From positions 16,439 to 80,438 of the forward strand of contig JAFXJP010000038.1 in the NCBI GenBank assembly GCA_017532155.1: a stretch of DNA of 64,000 nucleotides, written 5' to 3'. The first letter of the stretch is position 1. Every line of letters starts with the position of its first letter. Of the stretch, positions 2,750-58,671 are shown piece after piece. Source of the stretch: Clostridia bacterium (lineage in GTDB: Bacteria; Bacillota; Clostridia; Christensenellales; Aristaeellaceae). The position numbers and the translations under genes are program-made. The notes under the pieces were generated by a model. It had not been told where the DNA came from. It saw only the letters and a list, made by a program, of their open reading frames with translations, and made no database searches.

Positions 2750-3895
2750 TTATAGCGGCCTGGCGGCTTTGAGCAGCGCTACAGCATGCGTGCTGATGCC
2801 GCTTCCTTCGCCTTCATAGCCCATGCCCTCGGTGGTGGTGGCTTTGACGGACACGCAATCAAGCGGCAGGCCGCAGGCGCGGGCAATATTTTCACGCATG
2901 GCGGGAATATGCGGCGCAAGCTTGGGACGCTGGCACAGGACGGTTGCGTCAATATTCAGCGGTTCAAAGCCCTTTTCGCGCAGGAGGGAGACGGCATTTT
3001 CCAAAAGAAGCAGGGAAGAAATGCCTTTGTACTTAGGATCGCTGTCGGGAAAGTGCTTGCCGATATCACCCAGCGCTGCTGCGCCAAGCAATGCATCCGT
3101 AATGGCGTGAAGCAATACATCGGCGTCACTGTGGCCGAGCAGACCTTTTTCATAGGGGATATCAACGCCGCCCAGGATCAATTTGCGGCCTTCGACCAGA
3201 CGATGCGCATCAAAACCGTGGCCGATGCGCGGAAATACATTCAGATAATGCTCTGCCATCAGGACATCCTCCGGAGTGGTAAGTTTAATATTGCTGCGGC
3301 TGCCTTCGCACAGATGAACCTTTACGCCCAGCGCCGAAACCAGCGCGGCGTCATCCGTGCAGCGCTCGGTTACTTCGCGATGCGCGCGCAAAAGCAAATC
3401 CTTTTTAAATCCCTGCGGCGTTTGCACGGCGCGCAGATAATTGCGATCTGGCGTCGCGAGGGCGATGTTGTCTTTATCAACCTGCTTGAAGGTATCGGTA
3501 ACGGCGGTGGAGGCGATACCGCTGCCATAAGCGGCGACGGAAGAAATAACGTTTTGCACCGTCTGATCATCCAGAAGCGGTCGCGCACCGTCGTGAACAA
3601 GCACGATATCACAATCCTCAGGCAGGGACAGAAGGCCGTGATAGACCGATTCCTGCCGGTCAGAACCGCCGTATACGATGTGCTCAACAGAAAGCTTTGA
3701 GAGGCGCAGCGCCTGGCGGATTTCGGGCTCGTCAACTGGACGAATGACGAGCACTACACCCTGACAATGGCGGCGGAGCGTGCGCAGCGCATGACAAATT
3801 GCGCTTTCACCCATCAGGGGCAAAAGCGTTTTATTGCTGGCGCAGCCCATGCGCGTACCGCTGCCGCCGGATAACAGAATGGCCCAGGTGCTCAT
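2750..3895 (-). CDS. ispDF: Bifunctional MEP cytidylyltransferase / MEcPP synthase (IspD-IspF fusion)
   Basis: Two enzymes of the methylerythritol phosphate isoprenoid pathway in one 381-residue chain. Residues ~1-220 are IspD: an N-terminal nucleotide-binding loop SGGSGTRMG with a downstream Lys, and the VHDGARP motif, consistent with CTP-dependent activation of MEP. Residues ~223-381 are Isp[10 protein letters not shown] (metal-binding Asp and His), [17 protein letters not shown] and the C-terminal TTTEGMG. IspE, which acts between the two steps, is not in the window. The ATG overlaps the stop of the upstream DUF4364 gene by 4 bp, which points to translational coupling. Such fusions are known in Alphaproteobacteria, Campylobacterota and some Clostridia. 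Confidence 0.95.
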
Positions 3896-4428
3896 TGGTC
3901 TTCACCCAGCTTGTTCATCAGATACATATAAATATCGCCGGCGTTCTTTTCCCAGCGGGAGGCCATTTTTTCGGCCAGGGAGCGGTCCGGGATGGGGGCA
4001 TCGATACTGAGCATGGAGGTGAAGCCATCCATGAGATTCAGATGCAGGATATATTCGCCGCTGGCATTTTGCGTAACTTTGGAGACAAATTGCTTTTCGC
4101 GCGTAAAGCGCTCGCGCCAGGCCGGCGCCTGCTCGGTAATCAGCTTTACCTTGCTGTGGGGCATGCGATTAGCAAAGAAAGACAGCAGCTCTTTTCCGGC
4201 TTCGGTGATGGTATAAAGACTGTCGGCGGGATGCGCCATCTTGGCGGCCTGACCGTCGTCTACCAATTCACCCAGCGCCAGGGAGAGATCAAAAAAGGTC
4301 ATGATATCATTTTCAAACATGAAATAGAGCAGCTGCATGTGCGTGCAGCTCCCCAGCTCCTGAAGCGCAAGCAGCGTATAGAGCTTGCGATCCTGTTCAT
4401 CCATCATAGCATGCGGTAAAGGCAGCAT
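3892..4428 (-). CDS. DUF4364 family protein
   Basis: Predicted 178-residue cytoplasmic protein. The N-terminal half resembles a winged helix-turn-helix fold (helices around [18 protein letters not shown], then [12 protein letters not shown] and a hairpin ending in [11 protein letters not shown]). The C-terminal half is an alpha/beta domain. This layout matches DUF4364, a family found mostly in Clostridia with no settled function, possibly a transcriptional regulator. The start at 4428 has a perfect AGGAGG seven to eight bases upstream; the frame is open further upstream but only antisense to nothing useful. It lies 25 bp after the helicase gene and overlaps ispDF by 4 bp, so the three are probably co-transcribed. 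Confidence 0.8.
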
Positions 4429-4453
4429 AGTTTCCTCCTGATCAGGACAATCA

Positions 4454-6763
4454 TTATATAATTCCATGCGCGCGCCAAAAATCCTTTGTGCGCGCATGAA
4501 TTTCGTGACAATCGGCAACGGATTGATACTGATAATGCGCGGGCAGCAGCCGGGCATAGGCAAATTCGCGGTACCGCTCATCCAATAGCAGGATAACGCC
4601 TTTATCCTCTTCGCTGCGGATGACGCGGCCGGCAGCCTGCAGCACCTTATGCATGCCGGGATAGCGGTAGGTAGAGGAGAAGCCATCCTGCAGGGTTTGG
4701 TCATAATAGCGGCGCAGACGGTTTTGCTCATCATTGATTTGCGGAAGGCCTACGCCGATGACGGCTGCGCCGATCAGCTGAGCGCCAGGCAAATCGACGC
4801 CCTCTGAGAATACGCCGCCCAGCACGCACAGCGAGAGCAGCGGCTGCTGCGCGCTGCGAATGCGGTCAAGAAACTGATCGCGGGTGGATTCATCCATGCC
4901 GCGCTCCTGCGTATTGAGCGGGATGTCCGCCCGCAATTCTGCCAGCTTTTCCGCTGCAAGTGCAAGATAGGCATAGCTTGGGAAAAAGGCGATGTAATTG
5001 CCGCCTTTTGCGTCAAACATGGCGGCCAGACAGCGGACGATCTCATCGATGGAGGCGGCGCGCTTTTCATAGCGCGTATCTACGCTGCGCTGGAGGATCA
5101 AAAGGTTTTCTCTGGGAAAGGGCGAAGGCAGCGCAAAGAGCGCGTCCGCCTCCTCACCGCCCAGCATTTGCTTCATGGCAGGCAATGGATCAAGCGTGGC
5201 GGAAAAGAAAACGCTGCCCAGCATGCGCCGGGTACAGGCTTTCAGATGCTCGGCAATATCCAGCGCGAGCAAATGCACATGCTTTTCCTTTCCGGCTTCT
5301 GTGAGGAGCAGCGCATAGCGGTCAGGCGCTGCGCCGTAGCGCTCAAGCGCTGCACGGAAAGCCAGCAGATCACGGAAAGACTCGATGAGAAAGGCGTTTT
5401 TCGCGTTGGAAAGGTGTGCAGAGAGCGTATCAAGCAGCGCAGAAATACATGCGTGCAATTCTTCTATTGGGAAATTATCCTGCGATACGCTGCGCAGCAG
5501 GTCGATCAGCGGTTTGAAGGCTTTGTAGAGCGGATCGCGGCGGCTGCCGGTTTTGCCGACCTCACGGCGCAGAAGCGCTACCGACTGGCTGGATAGCGCG
5601 GCGGACAGCATGCCGCGTACGCGGGAAGGCAGATTATGCGCTTCGTCGATTAAAAGCGTGACGCGCAGACCGCGTTCAAATATGCGCTGCAGTCGCACGG
5701 CGGGATCAAAGGCATAATTATAATCGCAGATGACCACATCGGCAATTTCACACAGCGCCAGCGATAATTCAAAGGGGCAGACGGAATACGCCTGGGCGGT
5801 TTTTATAATGCGCTCGCTTGTCCAGTCATCGCTTTCCTGCATGAGCGCAATGATTGCGGCGCGCTCTCGGTCATAGTGGCCTTTGGCGCGCAGGCAATGA
5901 TCGGGATGGCAGCGCTTGAATTCCAGCGGACAGATTTTTTCTTTGGCAGTTAAAACGACGCTGCGGGCTTTAAGTCCCTTGGCGCGCATGAGAGCAAGGG
6001 CGTCGGTGGCCGCCTGGCGCGCGGTACCGCGGGCAGTCAGATAAAAAATCTGCCGGGTTTTTCCTTCGCCCAGCGCCTTGAGGGCAGGATAGAGCGTGGC
6101 TGCGCTTTTGCCGGTGCCGGTGGGCAGGGTGGCGAAAAGACGCTTTTGCAGCCGGATGGCGGTATACACCTGCGCAGCCATTTCACGCTGGCCGGGACGA
6201 TAGGCCGCAAAGGGAAAGGGCAGTGACTGCAAAGACGTATCGCGCAGTGCACGGAAGGTGCGCAGCTGCTTTTCCCATACGGCAAAGGGCGTGAGCATGG
6301 AGAAAAAGAGCGCTTTGGCTTCGTCCTGCGTCAGAGTTTCGGGGAAGGCTGCGCGCACGAGGCCTTCTTGGGTGACATAGGTTATCTGCACGCGGATGGC
6401 AGGATAGAGGCATTCTTCGCACAGCATGTGCGCATAGCAGACAGCCTGCATGCGGTGGACGGGAAGGGCAGCCTCCGGCAGCGGCGCAGAGGGAGAAATC
6501 AATTTGATTTCTTCAATCAGCGGGTCGGCGTGTGATGTGTGGAGAATATCAATGCGGCCGCTGATATCAAAGGCGACGCCTTCGCAATCGCCCTGCCAGC
6601 GGACGGTGCGTTCGCTTTCTTCGTTGATCTGGGCTTGCCGCGCTTTATGACCGCGCGCGCCTGCCTGCATGGCGGAAAGCGATGCAGGCGCGATATCGCC
6701 GCCCTGCAGGGAAAATTCGACAATACGCCGAACGGATACATGTAAAATATCCTGCTTTTCCAT
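4454..6763 (-). CDS. XPD/DinG-type Fe-S DNA helicase with N-terminal PD-(D/E)XK-like domain
   Basis: Predicted 769-residue superfamily 2 helicase related to Rad3/XPD/DinG, expected to unwind DNA 5' to 3' in repair. The Walker A motif LPTGTGKS is at 213-220. Four cysteines (KICPLEF, KRCHPDHC, SVCPFE) are spaced as in the XPD 4Fe-4S domain. A DEAH box follows (LLIDEAHNLP), and the C-terminal motor domain ends with QAAGRVIR. Residues ~60-110 show RID (Asp72), EEIK (Glu85, Lys87) and HRMQAVCYAH (Gln106), the order of a Cas4/AddB-like PD-(D/E)XK nuclease. The start at 6763 has AGGAGGTG at ideal spacing. It is the first gene of an apparent operon with the DUF4364 gene and ispDF. Confidence 0.88.
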   Translation of the reverse strand: MEKQDILHVSVRRIVEFSLQGGDIAPASLSAMQAGARGHKARQAQINEESERTVRWQGDCEGVAFDISGRIDILHTSHADPLIEEIKLISPSAPLPEAALPVHRMQAVCYAHMLCEECLYPAIRVQITYVTQEGLVRAAFPETLTQDEAKALFFSMLTPFAVWEKQLRTFRALRDTSLQSLPFPFAAYRPGQREMAAQVYTAIRLQKRLFATLPTGTGKSAATLYPALKALGEGKTRQIFYLTARGTARQAATDALALMRAKGLKARSVVLTAKEKICPLEFKRCHPDHCLRAKGHYDRERAAIIALMQESDDWTSERIIKTAQAYSVCPFELSLALCEIADVVICDYNYAFDPAVRLQRIFERGLRVTLLIDEAHNLPSRVRGMLSAALSSQSVALLRREVGKTGSRRDPLYKAFKPLIDLLRSVSQDNFPIEELHACISALLDTLSAHLSNAKNAFLIESFRDLLAFRAALERYGAAPDRYALLLTEAGKEKHVHLLALDIAEHLKACTRRMLGSVFFSATLDPLPAMKQMLGGEEADALFALPSPFPRENLLILQRSVDTRYEKRAASIDEIVRCLAAMFDAKGGNYIAFFPSYAYLALAAEKLAELRADIPLNTQERGMDESTRDQFLDRIRSAQQPLLSLCVLGGVFSEGVDLPGAQLIGAAVIGVGLPQINDEQNRLRRYYDQTLQDGFSSTYRYPGMHKVLQAAGRVIRSEEDKGVILLLDERYREFAYARLLPAHYQYQSVADCHEIHARTKDFWRAHGII

Positions 6764-54372: not shown

Positions 54373-54834
54373 TTATGCAATATGGCGGCCGTAGAGCAGA
54401 TAAAGACTGGATTTTATAACAACAGCGCACAACAGCAGGGCAAATGAGGCGTGGAAGGCAGCCATATTGAATAGCGCGGACGTCCAGGTGGTGATAAGCA
54501 TGCACAAAAGAAGCGCATCCAGCGCAAGGCCGCCGCTTTTTTCGTGCAGATACTGATTGCGCTCATCCTGCTCGGCAAGCATCTTTTCCTTGAGCAGCAG
54601 TTTGTTCTGCAGCAGCTTTTTATTGCTGCGAATGCGCAAGAGGATGTAGATCAATCCGCCAAAGAAGAGCACGCGGCTGATAAAATGGGCAAGGTCCGTC
54701 ATGATGCGGGAATCACCGCCGCCAATTTCGACGATAAAAACCATATAGACGATCATGAGAATAAATGTGCTCCATAATGCCCGGTTGCGGCAGCGAATTT
54801 TATCGGTAAAGGACAGCTTTTTATAGGTTTTCAT
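54373..54834 (-). CDS. Membrane protein paired with an XRE regulator
   Basis: Predicted 153-residue protein with four hydrophobic helices arranged as two pairs. A charged, helical cytoplasmic segment (NKKLLQNKLLLKEKMLAEQDERN) lies between them. It is translationally coupled to the upstream XRE gene (14-bp overlap), the common arrangement of a small HTH protein and a membrane partner in Firmicutes, whose role is mostly unknown. Not assigned to a family here. Confidence 0.75.
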   Translation of the reverse strand: MKTYKKLSFTDKIRCRNRALWSTFILMIVYMVFIVEIGGGDSRIMTDLAHFISRVLFFGGLIYILLRIRSNKKLLQNKLLLKEKMLAEQDERNQYLHEKSGGLALDALLLCMLITTWTSALFNMAAFHASFALLLCAVVIKSSLYLLYGRHIA

Positions 54835-55051
54835 AGGATTGATCCTCCAGTTTCATGTTTTCAGACAGACAGCAAAGCTCCTCCACGCTGACATGGAACA
54901 CCTGTGCAATGCGATAGGCGAGCATGAGAGAAGGATTGTACTGCTCCTTTTCAATGGAAATGATGGTTCTTGATGAGACGTGCACTTGATCGGCCAGCTG
55001 CTGTTGCGTGATGCCTGCCGCCTGACGCAATTCTTTGACAATTGTTTTCAT
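54821..55051 (-). CDS. Small XRE-family transcriptional regulator
   Basis: Predicted 76-residue HTH protein (YvaO/YozG-like). KELRQAAGITQQQLADQVHV and SSRTIISIEKEQYNPSL form the HTH, and the dimer tail is VFHVSVEELCCL. The start at 55051 has AGGAGG five to six bases upstream. Its promoter overlaps a duplicated palindrome at 55067-55098, the likely operator for autorepression. The membrane protein gene overlaps its end. Confidence 0.92.
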   Translation of the reverse strand: MKTIVKELRQAAGITQQQLADQVHVSSRTIISIEKEQYNPSLMLAYRIAQVFHVSVEELCCLSENMKLEDQSYENL

Positions 55052-55066
55052 ATGCACCTCCTGGAT

Positions 55067-55098
55067 ATGAAGCATACTTCATATGAAGCTAACTTCAT
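55067..55098. promoter_or_regulatory. Two abutting perfect palindromes: operator of the XRE gene
   Basis: ATGAAG-cata-CTTCAT (55067-55082) is followed without a gap by ATGAAG-ctaa-CTTCAT (55083-55098). Each is a perfect 6+6 inverted repeat with a 4-bp spacer. The block covers the predicted transcript start and touches the -10 box of the minus-strand promoter, and it ends 16 bp before the XRE start codon. Confidence 0.8.
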
Positions 55099-55125
55099 GT
55101 TATCATGTGGAAGAAGATTTGTCAA
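55097..55125 (-). promoter_or_regulatory. Sigma-A promoter of the XRE/membrane protein pair
   Basis: On the minus strand: TTGACA at 55125-55120, a 17-bp spacer, TAACAT at 55102-55097. Overlaps the operator by two bases. Confidence 0.75.
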
Positions 55126-55140
55126 TACCGTGGCTGTGTA

Positions 55141-55170
55141 TTGCTCTTTTGACTCAGAATGATATATAAT
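55141..55170 (+). promoter_or_regulatory. Sigma-A promoter of the DUF84/DHFR operon
   Basis: TTGCTC, an 18-bp spacer and TATAAT, 29 bp before the gene. Divergent from the XRE promoter with about 15 bp between their -35 boxes. Confidence 0.6.
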
Positions 55171-55198
55171 ATACGAAAGCATGCAAGGGGGAAGGAAA

Positions 55199-55813
55199 AT
55201 GTACATTTCCATTGGTACGCGCAGCAAGCCCAAGATTTCTGCGGTATGCGCAGCATTTGCGATGTATCCGCAGATTTGCTTTGCCAGGGAAGATGAATTG
55301 CATTTTGTGATTTTGCCGGAAGAAAAGCGCGGAGAGGCAAAAGGAGCAGATCATGTGGATCAGGTGAGCGGCGTATCGTGCAATCCCATGACGCTGGAGA
55401 GCACCATTCTGGGTGCAAAGAACCGGGCGCGGGAGGCCTATGCGCATTGCCTGGATGCGCATGGTGAATGTGCATTTGGCGTTGGAATTGAGGCGGGGCT
55501 TTTTCCGGCAGAAGGCGTGCAGACGGGATATCTTGATACCAGCATCTGCGCGATTTATAATGGTAAGGAGTATTTTGTGGGCGGAAGTCCGCTGTTTGAG
55601 TACCCGGCGGCGGTGGTCAGACGCATAAAGGCGGGTGAAGAAGCTGGCCTGATCAGCGATTTCTTTGGTGATTTCGCCAAAGGCCGATCTGGCGTGATTG
55701 GGCCGCTGTCGGGCGGGATTGTCAATCGTGATGAATTTGATCGCTATGCGGTGCTGATGGCACTTACCCGTGTGGCGGCGGCAGAGCTGTATGCAAAGGA
55801 TGAGAATGCATGA
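55199..55813 (+). CDS. DUF84 family NTPase (inosine/xanthosine triphosphatase, YjjX-like)
   Basis: Predicted 204-residue house-cleaning enzyme that hydrolyses non-canonical purine triphosphates. IGTRSKPKISAVCAAF at the N-terminus is the nucleotide-binding start. ESTILGAKNRAREAYAH, FGVGIEAGL and VIGPLSGGIVNRDEF are family features. The start at 55199 follows GGGGGAAGGAAA. The stop overlaps the dihydrofolate reductase fusion by 4 bp. Confidence 0.88.
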   Translation: MYISIGTRSKPKISAVCAAFAMYPQICFAREDELHFVILPEEKRGEAKGADHVDQVSGVSCNPMTLESTILGAKNRAREAYAHCLDAHGECAFGVGIEAGLFPAEGVQTGYLDTSICAIYNGKEYFVGGSPLFEYPAAVVRRIKAGEEAGLISDFFGDFAKGRSGVIGPLSGGIVNRDEFDRYAVLMALTRVAAAELYAKDENA

Positions 55814-56946
55814 TCGCAGCAGTTGTAGCGGTGGATGAAAATTTCGCAATCGGCCATCAGGGCGGGATGCTAACCAGTATTCGCGGGGATTTGAAAATGT
55901 TCCGTGAGCTGACGAGCGGACATGCGGTGATTATGGGCCGGAAAACATTCGATGCTTTGCCCAATGGCGCACTGCCGAACAGGCGCAATATTGTTATATC
56001 TTCTCGCGCAAAAGGTGGGTTTGTTCCCGTATCGGATCATAGGGGCGAATATGTGCTGTCCTCGATGGAAAAGACAAAGGAATTGCTTGAAAACAGCGGG
56101 GATGAGACATTGTTTGTGATTGGCGGCGGCGTGATTTACAGCGAATTGCTTCCGTACTGTCAGCGGGTGTATCTGACGAAAATCCATAAGGCGTTTGATG
56201 TAGCGGATACCTATTTCCCAAGGATTGATCGGATGAAGGAATGGCATGAAATCCGCTGTGGGGAAATACAGGAAGAAAATGAACTGAAATATCAATTCTG
56301 CATCTACGAAAGACAAATTAACAATTCTTTTTGGGATCAATCCTGGAATGAGATTGATCAGGAGAGAATCATTCAGTATGCAAATCAATTGGATATGAAG
56401 AAAGACTGCATTATTGAGGGTTTGCTTTCGAATGATGCGCAGCTTGTTTGCGATGCAGGCTGCGGATGCGGAGCATATACGCTGAAGCTGTGCTCCTTTG
56501 GCTTTTCCGTATCTGCTTTTGACGTGGCTGCGGGAGCGATTGATATCGCAGAAAAGCTGCTTGAAAAGGCTGGCTATGCAGCAGAATTGAAGACTGCCAG
56601 TGTGACAGATACTGGCTATGATGATGATTGCTTTGACGCGGTGGTTTCAAGAGATGTGATTGATCACATTTGCAAAAGGGATGCAATGCTGGCCATTCAC
56701 GAATTATATCGGATTGTGCGTCCAGGCGGCGTTCTGCTGATAACGCTGGATCATTTAGACGAGGAATATGAAAAAGAGCCGCATAGAATCAACCAGGACG
56801 GCGATTATCTGTTTTCAGACGGCAAATGGAAAGGGATGTGTTTTCATTCCTATGATTTGCAGGAAATCAAAGCGCTGATACCAGACGGAGCAGCGTATGA
56901 AGTGATAGATTCAGATGGGATATTGCTGAAGATCATCAAACAATAA
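55810..56946 (+). CDS. Dihydrofolate reductase fused to a class I SAM-dependent methyltransferase
   Basis: Predicted 378-residue protein with two domains in one open frame. Residues 1-165 are DHFR: AAVVAVDENFAIG, DLKMFRELT with the catalytic acid, IMGRKTFDALP, and VIGGGVIYSELLP; it reduces dihydrofolate with NADPH. Residues ~168-378 are a Rossmann methyltransferase: CDAGCGCGAYTLKLC (SAM motif I), DVAAGAID, FDAVVSRDVIDH and RIVRPGGVLLI. The second domain is visibly poorer in GC and looks imported. The join ERQINNSFW has ATT where a separate methyltransferase gene would start with ATG, suggesting fusion by loss of the DHFR stop. The methyl acceptor is unknown. Coupled to the DUF84 gene; a terminator follows. 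Confidence 0.87.
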   Translation: MIAAVVAVDENFAIGHQGGMLTSIRGDLKMFRELTSGHAVIMGRKTFDALPNGALPNRRNIVISSRAKGGFVPVSDHRGEYVLSSMEKTKELLENSGDETLFVIGGGVIYSELLPYCQRVYLTKIHKAFDVADTYFPRIDRMKEWHEIRCGEIQEENELKYQFCIYERQINNSFWDQSWNEIDQERIIQYANQLDMKKDCIIEGLLSNDAQLVCDAGCGCGAYTLKLCSFGFSVSAFDVAAGAIDIAEKLLEKAGYAAELKTASVTDTGYDDDCFDAVVSRDVIDHICKRDAMLAIHELYRIVRPGGVLLITLDHLDEEYEKEPHRINQDGDYLFSDGKWKGMCFHSYDLQEIKALIPDGAAYEVIDSDGILLKIIKQ

Positions 56947-56980
56947 AAGAATCACGGCATGAAAATCATGCCGTGATTCT
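56942..56980. terminator. Terminator between convergent DHFR-methyltransferase and fhs
   Basis: Perfect 14-bp stem AGAATCACGGCATG / CATGCCGTGATTCT with a five-base loop. The T-run is better on the minus strand, for fhs. Confidence 0.92.
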
Positions 56981-56994
56981 CTATTTGTGATGAA

Positions 56995-58671
56995 TTAGAA
57001 CAGGCCGACGATCTTGCCGTTCTCGTCCACGTCGATGCGTTCGGCGGCGGGAACCTTGGGCAGACCAGGCATGGTCATGATATCACCGGTGAGCACAACG
57101 ATGAAGCCGGCGCCGGCGGAAATCTTGACGTTCTTGATGGTTACTTCGAAGTCTTCCGGAGCACCCAGCTTGGTGGGATCATCCGAGAAGGAATACTGCG
57201 TCTTGGCGATGCAGACAGGGCACTTGTCAAAGCCCAGCTTGGTCAGATTGGCAATCTGCTTCTTGGCAGCGGGGGTGACCACGATGCCGCGGCCGCCGTA
57301 TACCTTCTTGACGACGGCTTCGATCTTTTCCTCGATGGAGCAGTCCAGATCGTAAGAGAAGGTGAAATCGCCCTTTTCTTCTTCGCACAGACGGACAACT
57401 TCCTTGGCCAGGGCTTCGCCGCCCTTGCCGCCATCCGCCCAGACGGTGGACAGAACGGTGTTGACATTAAGCTCGTGGCACTTGTCGATGATGAAGTTGA
57501 TTTCGTTGTCGGTGTCGGTGGGGAAGCGGTTGACAGCGACCACGCAGGGCAGCTTATAGACGTTCTTGATATTGCTGACGTGACGCAGCAGGTTCGGGAT
57601 GCCCTTTTCCAGCGCAACGAGATCTTCGGTGTTCAGCGCGGTCTTGGGCAGGCCGCCGTGCATCTTCAGCGCGCGGACGGTAGCGACCACAACTACGGCG
57701 TCGGGCGTGAGGCCGGCCATGCGGCACTTGATATCCAGGAACTTTTCAGCGCCCAGATCGGCGCCGAAGCCGGCTTCCGTGATGGTATAGTCGCCCATCT
57801 TGAGCGCCAGCTTGGTGGCCATCACAGAGTTGCAGCCGTGCGCGATATTGGCAAAGGGGCCGCCGTGCACGAAGGCGGGCGTGCCTTCCAAGGTCTGTAC
57901 GAGGTTGGGTTTGAGCGCGTCCTTGAGCAGAGCCGTCATGGCGCCGGCAGCCTTCAGCTGGCCGCAGGTAACGGGCTGATCATCATAGGTATAGCCCACG
58001 ATGATGCGGGAGAGGCGCTCCTTCAGGTCGGTAATGGAATTGGACAGGCACAGAACGGCCATGATTTCGCTGGCAACGGTGATGTCAAAGCCGTCCTCGC
58101 GGGGAGTGCCGTTGATTTTGCCGCCCATGCCATCCACGATGAAGCGCAGCTGGCGGTCATTCATATCTACGCAACGCTTCCAGGTGATCTTGCGTACGTC
58201 GATATTCAGCTGGTTACCCTGCTGGATGTGGTTGTCCAGCATTGCCGCCAGCAGATTGTTGGCAGCGCCGATGGCGTGGAAGTCACCGGTGAAGTGAAGG
58301 TTGATATCCTCCATGGGCACAACCTGCGCATAGCCGCCGCCGGCAGCGCCGCCCTTAACGCCAAAGACCGGGCCGAGGGAGGGCTCGCGCAGCGCGACGG
58401 TAACATCCTTGCCGATGCGCTTGAGGCCGTCGGCAAGACCGATGGTGGTGGTGGTTTTGCCTTCGCCGGCGGGGGTGGGGGTGATGGCAGTGACCAGGAT
58501 CAGCTTGCCGTCCTTGCGGTCGGTTTCGTTGAGCAGGCTCAGGTCGATCTTGGCCTTGTAGCGGCCATACTGCTCCAGGTACTTTTCGTCCACGTGGGCG
58601 ACCTTGGCAATCTCCTGAATTGGCTTCATTTCGCAGCTCTGCGCGATTTCAATATCAGACTTATACTGCAT
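56995..58671 (-). CDS. fhs: Formate--tetrahydrofolate ligase
   Basis: Predicted 558-residue ATP-dependent enzyme making 10-formyl-THF from formate. [16 protein letters not shown] is the ATP-binding loop near residue 65; [22 protein letters not shown], the [16 protein letters not shown] block and a complete C-terminus are present. It supplies the formyl donor used by the purine enzymes encoded just upstream in the same direction (AICAR transformylase in particular). It is separated from purL by 21 bp with AGGGATGG before the start. It ends with a strong terminator. Confidence 0.98.

Follow-up and report, generated by a model that had tools for sequence, protein, structure and literature searches.

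The locus described here raises the question of how a dihydrofolate reductase (DHFR) came to share one reading frame with a SAM-dependent methyltransferase, and whether this union couples folate metabolism to methyl transfer or records the capture of a neighboring gene. The fused gene lies in the window, i.e., the whole stretch of 64,000 nucleotides that was analyzed from a Clostridia bacterium genome. Our data favor the second answer, with a probability of roughly 0.78 for a history in which a cargo methyltransferase was captured behind dfr by stop loss and is now expressed as a dfr-driven single chain.

On the forward strand, positions 55810-56946 form a single open frame from ATG to TAA, encoding 378 amino acids (aa) according to the translation and the list of open reading frames (ORFs). 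The DHFR half (residues 1-168; 55810-56313, forward strand) matches the whole of Pfam DHFR_1 (PF00186; profile positions 1-159 of 159, E = 9.4e-44, 149.3 bits against a gathering score of 25), and is followed by the methyltransferase half (residues 169-378 plus the stop; 56314-56946, forward strand), where Methyltransf_11 (PF08241) was recognized on residues 215-311 (E = 5.8e-17, 62.6 bits against a gathering score of 21.2). The preliminary description had correctly read a DHFR that continues without a stop into a complete methyltransferase, while the DHFR extent that it gave, residues 1-165, is corrected by Pfam to 168 residues. The protein gave 12 Pfam hits, none of them to a thymidylate synthase family. 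Its genome contains no second copy of the fused gene, the two other matches there being weak, confined to the methyltransferase part and 23% identical. PADLOC gave one hit, to mad2 (54.9 bits, E = 1.7e-15, residues 172-318), which we attributed to general Rossmann-fold similarity and set aside.

The second half is a predicted class I SAM-dependent methyltransferase, with a glycine-rich SAM-binding motif (DAGCGCG) and an acidic FD that are invariant in both the 6-row and the 31-row methyltransferase alignments. A profile search of the PDB with this half and five relatives returned 90 sequences (best 5wp5, E = 1.7e-15), and the best 60 of these 90 include many small-molecule methyltransferases by name. 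For the DHFR half, the closest solved structure was 8uvz (E = 1.7e-29), and D27 (in GDLKMF), which we take to correspond to the active-site acidic residue Asp27 of Escherichia coli DHFR, aligned with an Asp of 8uvz and was invariant in a 4-row DHFR alignment. A Pro21-Trp22 pair (E. coli numbering) is usual in DHFRs, being common though no Pfam criterion; in the alignment with 8uvz, the window protein has Leu-Thr at this site. Since Trp is absent from 21 of the 26 aligned DHFR rows, including 19 of the 20 from the window's own family, its loss is a trait of the clade and was not caused by the fusion. This Trp-less clade (the window DHFR at 55810-56313 together with L004, L025-L041, L051, and L052) mostly carries ML[F/Y/T/V/I]HLPGDL near the active site. 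In leave-one-out counts, from which identical rows and rows below 85% coverage were removed, the window keeps 44 of the 45 methyltransferase positions that are at least 95% conserved in the other rows (49 rows) and 15 of the 16 corresponding DHFR positions (26 rows). Both domains are therefore intact in sequence, and would be expected to fold and act, with the reservation that DHFR activity is not assumed given the missing Pro-Trp.

Evidence for the origin of the fusion comes from the genus. DHFR_1 was detected in two of 11 genus genomes, that of the window and G003, and the stand-alone DHFR of G003 shares 71% identity with the window's DHFR half and has the same two neighbors. The G003 locus runs from the NTPase through the DHFR (166 aa, ending in its own stop) and a terminator-like hairpin with a T-rich end to a convergent formate-tetrahydrofolate (THF) ligase; the window has the NTPase, then the fused DHFR-methyltransferase, a hairpin unlike that of G003, and again the convergent ligase. 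In the DNA alignment, the two genomes match up to the last DHFR codons, where the methyltransferase replaces the stop and hairpin of G003; the aligner placed the end of the ligase gene poorly, so that the downstream flank rests on ORFs. Because DHFR stands alone between the same neighbors in G003, the methyltransferase was evidently joined to dfr at its 3' end. In G002, a third member of the genus, a methyltransferase gene with 48% identity stands by itself at a different locus.

The upstream neighbor is an NTPase_I-T (DUF84) gene (55199-55813, forward strand; PF01931, E = 7.7e-28 for 55181-55810). Its ORF was listed from 55181, where the Shine-Dalgarno estimate is -0.1, whereas the ATG six codons on, at 55199, scores -10.0; this better ribosome-binding site, together with agreement with the G003 start, makes 55199 the likelier start. 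The NTPase stop overlaps the DHFR start (ATGA), which suggests that both are probably translated together. Downstream, a terminator-like hairpin with a 15-bp stem lies between the convergent genes (56948-56980, forward strand; -26.4 kcal/mol, z = -7.4); it has a weak T run on the forward strand and scores on the reverse strand also. A terminator scan of 55000-57100 gave six terminator-like sites against 1.6 expected. The formate-THF ligase follows on the reverse strand (56995-58671; PF01268, E = 1.4e-275).

At the junction, GAA AGA, the last DHFR codons, are followed by CAA ATT AAC AAT TCT TTT TGG, giving the peptide ERQINNSFW. The CAA codon (56314-56316, forward strand) stands at the expected DHFR stop site, as the G003 DHFR, one codon longer and ending in ERA and a stop, terminates within about one codon of it; CAA is one transition away from TAA. 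Next to it, ATT (56317-56319, forward strand) occupies what homologue comparison indicates as the ancestral ATG site of the methyltransferase. The start survey comprised 50 loci, i.e., 48 of the 49 from a scan of species genomes plus L021 and L023, with L083, which is without the FW motif, left out. At the fourth codon ahead of the FW motif, which is ATT in the window, 21 of the 49 usable homologues have ATG; a spacing of four codons is also the most frequent one between FW and the closest ATG before it (18/49). Several of these 49 rows are near-duplicates and do not represent 49 independent events. The Shine-Dalgarno estimate is -0.2 kcal/mol at ATT 56317, compared with -5.4 at the DHFR start and a range of -5.8 to -11.4 among seven genes nearby. 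The proposal that ATT sits where the methyltransferase's own ATG would be is thus borne out, and the insert-free relative, the ATT at the homologues' ATG site, the CAA junction codon, and the lack of a ribosome-binding site there give good support to the capture of a downstream gene through loss of the DHFR stop. Within the DHFR half, the in-frame ATG at 56233 (residue 142) has a ribosome-binding estimate of -5.3, close to that of the DHFR start (-5.4), and a shorter second product could start from it. No promoter-like site was listed by the promoter scan on the forward strand at 55562-56593. One such site, with 11 of 12 matches, was found upstream of dfr within the NTPase gene (55533-55561), in a region that gave seven sites against 2.7 expected.

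Base composition had been cited as a further sign of capture, the methyltransferase half being described as richer in AT than its surroundings. Indeed, its GC3 is 0.452, whereas 47 segments of 210 codons drawn from eight larger genes nearby all lie higher (minimum 0.538, mean 0.708, sd 0.070). The contrast nevertheless does not set it apart from its immediate neighbors, GC3 being low also in DHFR (0.530), the upstream NTPase (0.543), and the small HTH gene preceding the NTPase (0.565). Across the HTH, NTPase, DHFR, and methyltransferase genes (54821-56946), values are 0.45-0.57 against the mean of 0.71, and this whole stretch may have been acquired.

Near relatives of the methyltransferase occur in 10 of 300 family genomes (E below 1e-50) and relatives in six of 396 order genomes (E at or below 1e-30), its own genome included in both counts. 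When 84,980 species genomes were scanned, 49 loci were returned, of which 48 were good and one (L104) was a weak, 27% match; all belong to Clostridia or its subgroups by title, and most are gut or rumen metagenome-assembled genomes (MAGs). The family is patchily distributed and has probably spread horizontally. The genes upstream of these loci were varied by eye, and the profile test of four of them, chosen for their GNAT look, identified GNAT in L057 and L058, NUDIX-GNAT in L100, and DUF4317-GNAT in L081, the methyltransferase being in all four a separate gene next to the GNAT-type gene. The upstream neighbors in L081 (2340-3974, DUF4317-GNAT) and L100 (3085-3990, NUDIX-GNAT) are fusions themselves. 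The copy in L083 (4001-4561) appears to be a damaged methyltransferase gene, as the frame that matches begins only at query residue 78. Long frames in L064, L066, L086, L099, L101, and L103 were rejected as fusions, since they look like GC-rich out-of-frame readings; in L086 a genuine gene, complete with a stop, was seen in another frame, and the other five were judged by eye. A midpoint-rooted tree of 48 rows places the window methyltransferase beside L056-L059 (97/85), within a 12-row group (95/83), on a long branch (0.8 against a median of 0.24) that could reflect weaker constraint.

A second in-frame fusion was found in this family. In L073 (JAFTDT010000109.1, a goat rumen MAG), positions 3536-4633 encode a GNAT-methyltransferase protein (Acetyltransf_1 at 28-126, Methyltransf_25 at 196-291), whose methyltransferase keeps 45 of the 46 positions that are at least 95% conserved in the other rows (leave-one-out). 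Among 60 genomes around L073, its own included, GNAT stands alone in G695 and G704, ending where L073 enters the methyltransferase, and the methyltransferase stands alone in G682 and G704. As in the window, a member of the same methyltransferase family has become C-terminal to a small enzyme, with both as separate genes in relatives; the differences lie in the GNAT partner, the tree position, and an in-frame ATG 10 codons before the FW motif. L073 falls outside the window's supported 12-row group (95/83), so that, as far as a midpoint-rooted tree tells, the two fusions are separate events. Moreover, the fusion of the same family to an unrelated acetyltransferase makes the partner look incidental.

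The DHFR-methyltransferase fusion looks real and rare. Among 396 order genomes, 200 carry DHFR_1, and the longest other open frame among the matches listed has 260 aa. In the phylum, 73 of 398 genomes carry DHFR_1 and at least eight frames exceed 300 aa, the window's among them; of the seven others, five were examined (G945 and G993 were left out), and none of these five has a C-terminal partner, four having an N-terminal HPPK-like part and one a GC-rich upstream frame (by eye). A whole-protein genome scan returned no relative. Phage records gave 883 matches, none covering 80% of the protein, and plasmid records at least 5000, with none covering 80% among the matches listed. Scans of IMG/VR with the methyltransferase alignment and with the whole protein returned no relative, and a phage origin of the methyltransferase was rejected on these results; the DHFR alignment gave 89 IMG/VR relatives (80 kept; best-segment identity 26-40%). 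A search of mainly open-access literature found no DHFR-methyltransferase fusion among the papers listed.

Regarding folate metabolism, ThyX was detected in eight of the 11 genus genomes, the window genome included, and missed in three, and neither ThyA (PF00303) nor HPPK was found in any of the 11; as these genomes are incomplete (82.5% for the window's own), such absences are soft and provisional. In organisms that contain ThyX, FolA is described as not absolutely required for thymidylate metabolism (PMC9931769), and a folate-gene survey mentions that DHFR is also used in salvage of oxidized folates and that some DHFR activity is still needed in ThyX organisms (PMC1971073). In this context, with no ThyA or HPPK found in the genus, the window DHFR is most likely a low-demand accessory salvage enzyme reducing oxidized folates, rather than a useless one.

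The same observations bear on other explanations of the fused frame. The preliminary description suggested that the union might link methyl transfer to folate state. This could work, for instance, through a shared pterin substrate or NADPH/folate sensing, and in its favor one could adduce the conserved positions kept in both domains and the neighboring formate-THF ligase, also a one-carbon gene. We regard such coupling as improbable, since the same methyltransferase family occurs alone or fused to GNAT elsewhere, no DHFR ORF was found beside the 49 methyltransferase loci (blastp at 1e-8, in flanking DNA of at most 4 kb, truncated at some loci), and the ligase keeps its place in G003 without the methyltransferase. 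Furthermore, SAM, and not folate, gives the methyl group to such methyltransferase domains. Folate coupling was accordingly dropped as the leading reading, and the description's other option, a chance join with the methyltransferase riding along, is the better of the two. Still less probable is an assembly or sequencing artifact, in which dfr and the methyltransferase would really be two adjacent or distant genes: the genome is an incomplete assembly of 62 contigs and the fusion is known from one strain, but both neighbors agree with G003 in order and strand, and two errors would be required at the junction, one for the absent stop and one for the absent ATG. The fused gene and both neighbors lie inside one 80-kb contig, which, with the agreement with G003, makes a false join unlikely.

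A third explanation shares the history of capture and differs in its fate, the DHFR being dispensable and the chimera decaying without selection. In its favor are the detection of DHFR in only two of 11 genus genomes, with ThyA in none, and the long methyltransferase branch; the 378 codons without a stop or frameshift and the near-invariant positions kept (44/45 and 15/16) make it unlikely.

Under capture with continued expression, the reading that we prefer, a single-gene class I methyltransferase of gut Clostridia would have inserted between the NTPase-dfr pair and the formate-THF ligase that faces it. Loss of the stop of dfr, most simply by TAA to CAA, would have followed, and the methyltransferase start, no longer needed, would have decayed from ATG to ATT, so that translation from the dfr start now yields both enzymes in a single polypeptide. 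An ancestral stop directly adjoining the start, with both lost by point changes, appears the simplest history, and a small deletion joining the two genes would also fit; we infer the ancestral stop and start codons, and the order and kind of the mutations, from present-day codons. For its transcription and translation the methyltransferase probably relies on the gene behind which it landed, and it most likely acts on its own substrate, gaining expression from dfr without being folate-regulated. A broader proposal, in which such methyltransferases are prone to land behind same-strand genes and become C-terminal domains (of DHFR here and GNAT in L073), as a steady source of two-enzyme proteins, and in which the DHFR chimera may have folate-dependent control, is put forward only tentatively, as we find it rather doubtful.

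The locus comes near to a fusion by stop loss caught in the act, since a relative without the fusion exists, two codon changes offer a plausible history, and the family has fused in parallel to another partner. It also warns against deducing function from a fusion partner: "Rosetta stone" logic would tie folate to the methyltransferase, whereas the wider family, alone or GNAT-fused, suggests that the partner is incidental. In addition, the window dfr shows how an accessory salvage gene can serve as the carrier of cargo.

Other two-enzyme DHFR proteins help to place this one. Four HPPK-DHFR proteins (L198, L199, L200, and L202, from G920, G865, G1060, and G750) were identified in one family of the same phylum, with Pfam HPPK in L198 and L199 (E = 7.6e-38 and 5.2e-40 in these two), and an exact-phrase literature search found no paper on an HPPK-DHFR fusion. 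Like the window protein, they join DHFR to another enzyme, and their DHFR halves also are without Pro-Trp, but their partner is N-terminal and belongs to the folate pathway. In the DHFR-thymidylate synthase (DHFR-TS) of protozoa and plants, DHFR is N-terminal in a two-enzyme chain, as in the window, where the partner is instead a SAM-dependent Rossmann methyltransferase and ThyA is found in none of the 11 genus genomes. The stand-alone DHFR of G003 differs from the fused gene in having a stop and hairpin in place of the methyltransferase. In brief, DHFR-methyltransferase is a new domain pair arising from a known kind of event.
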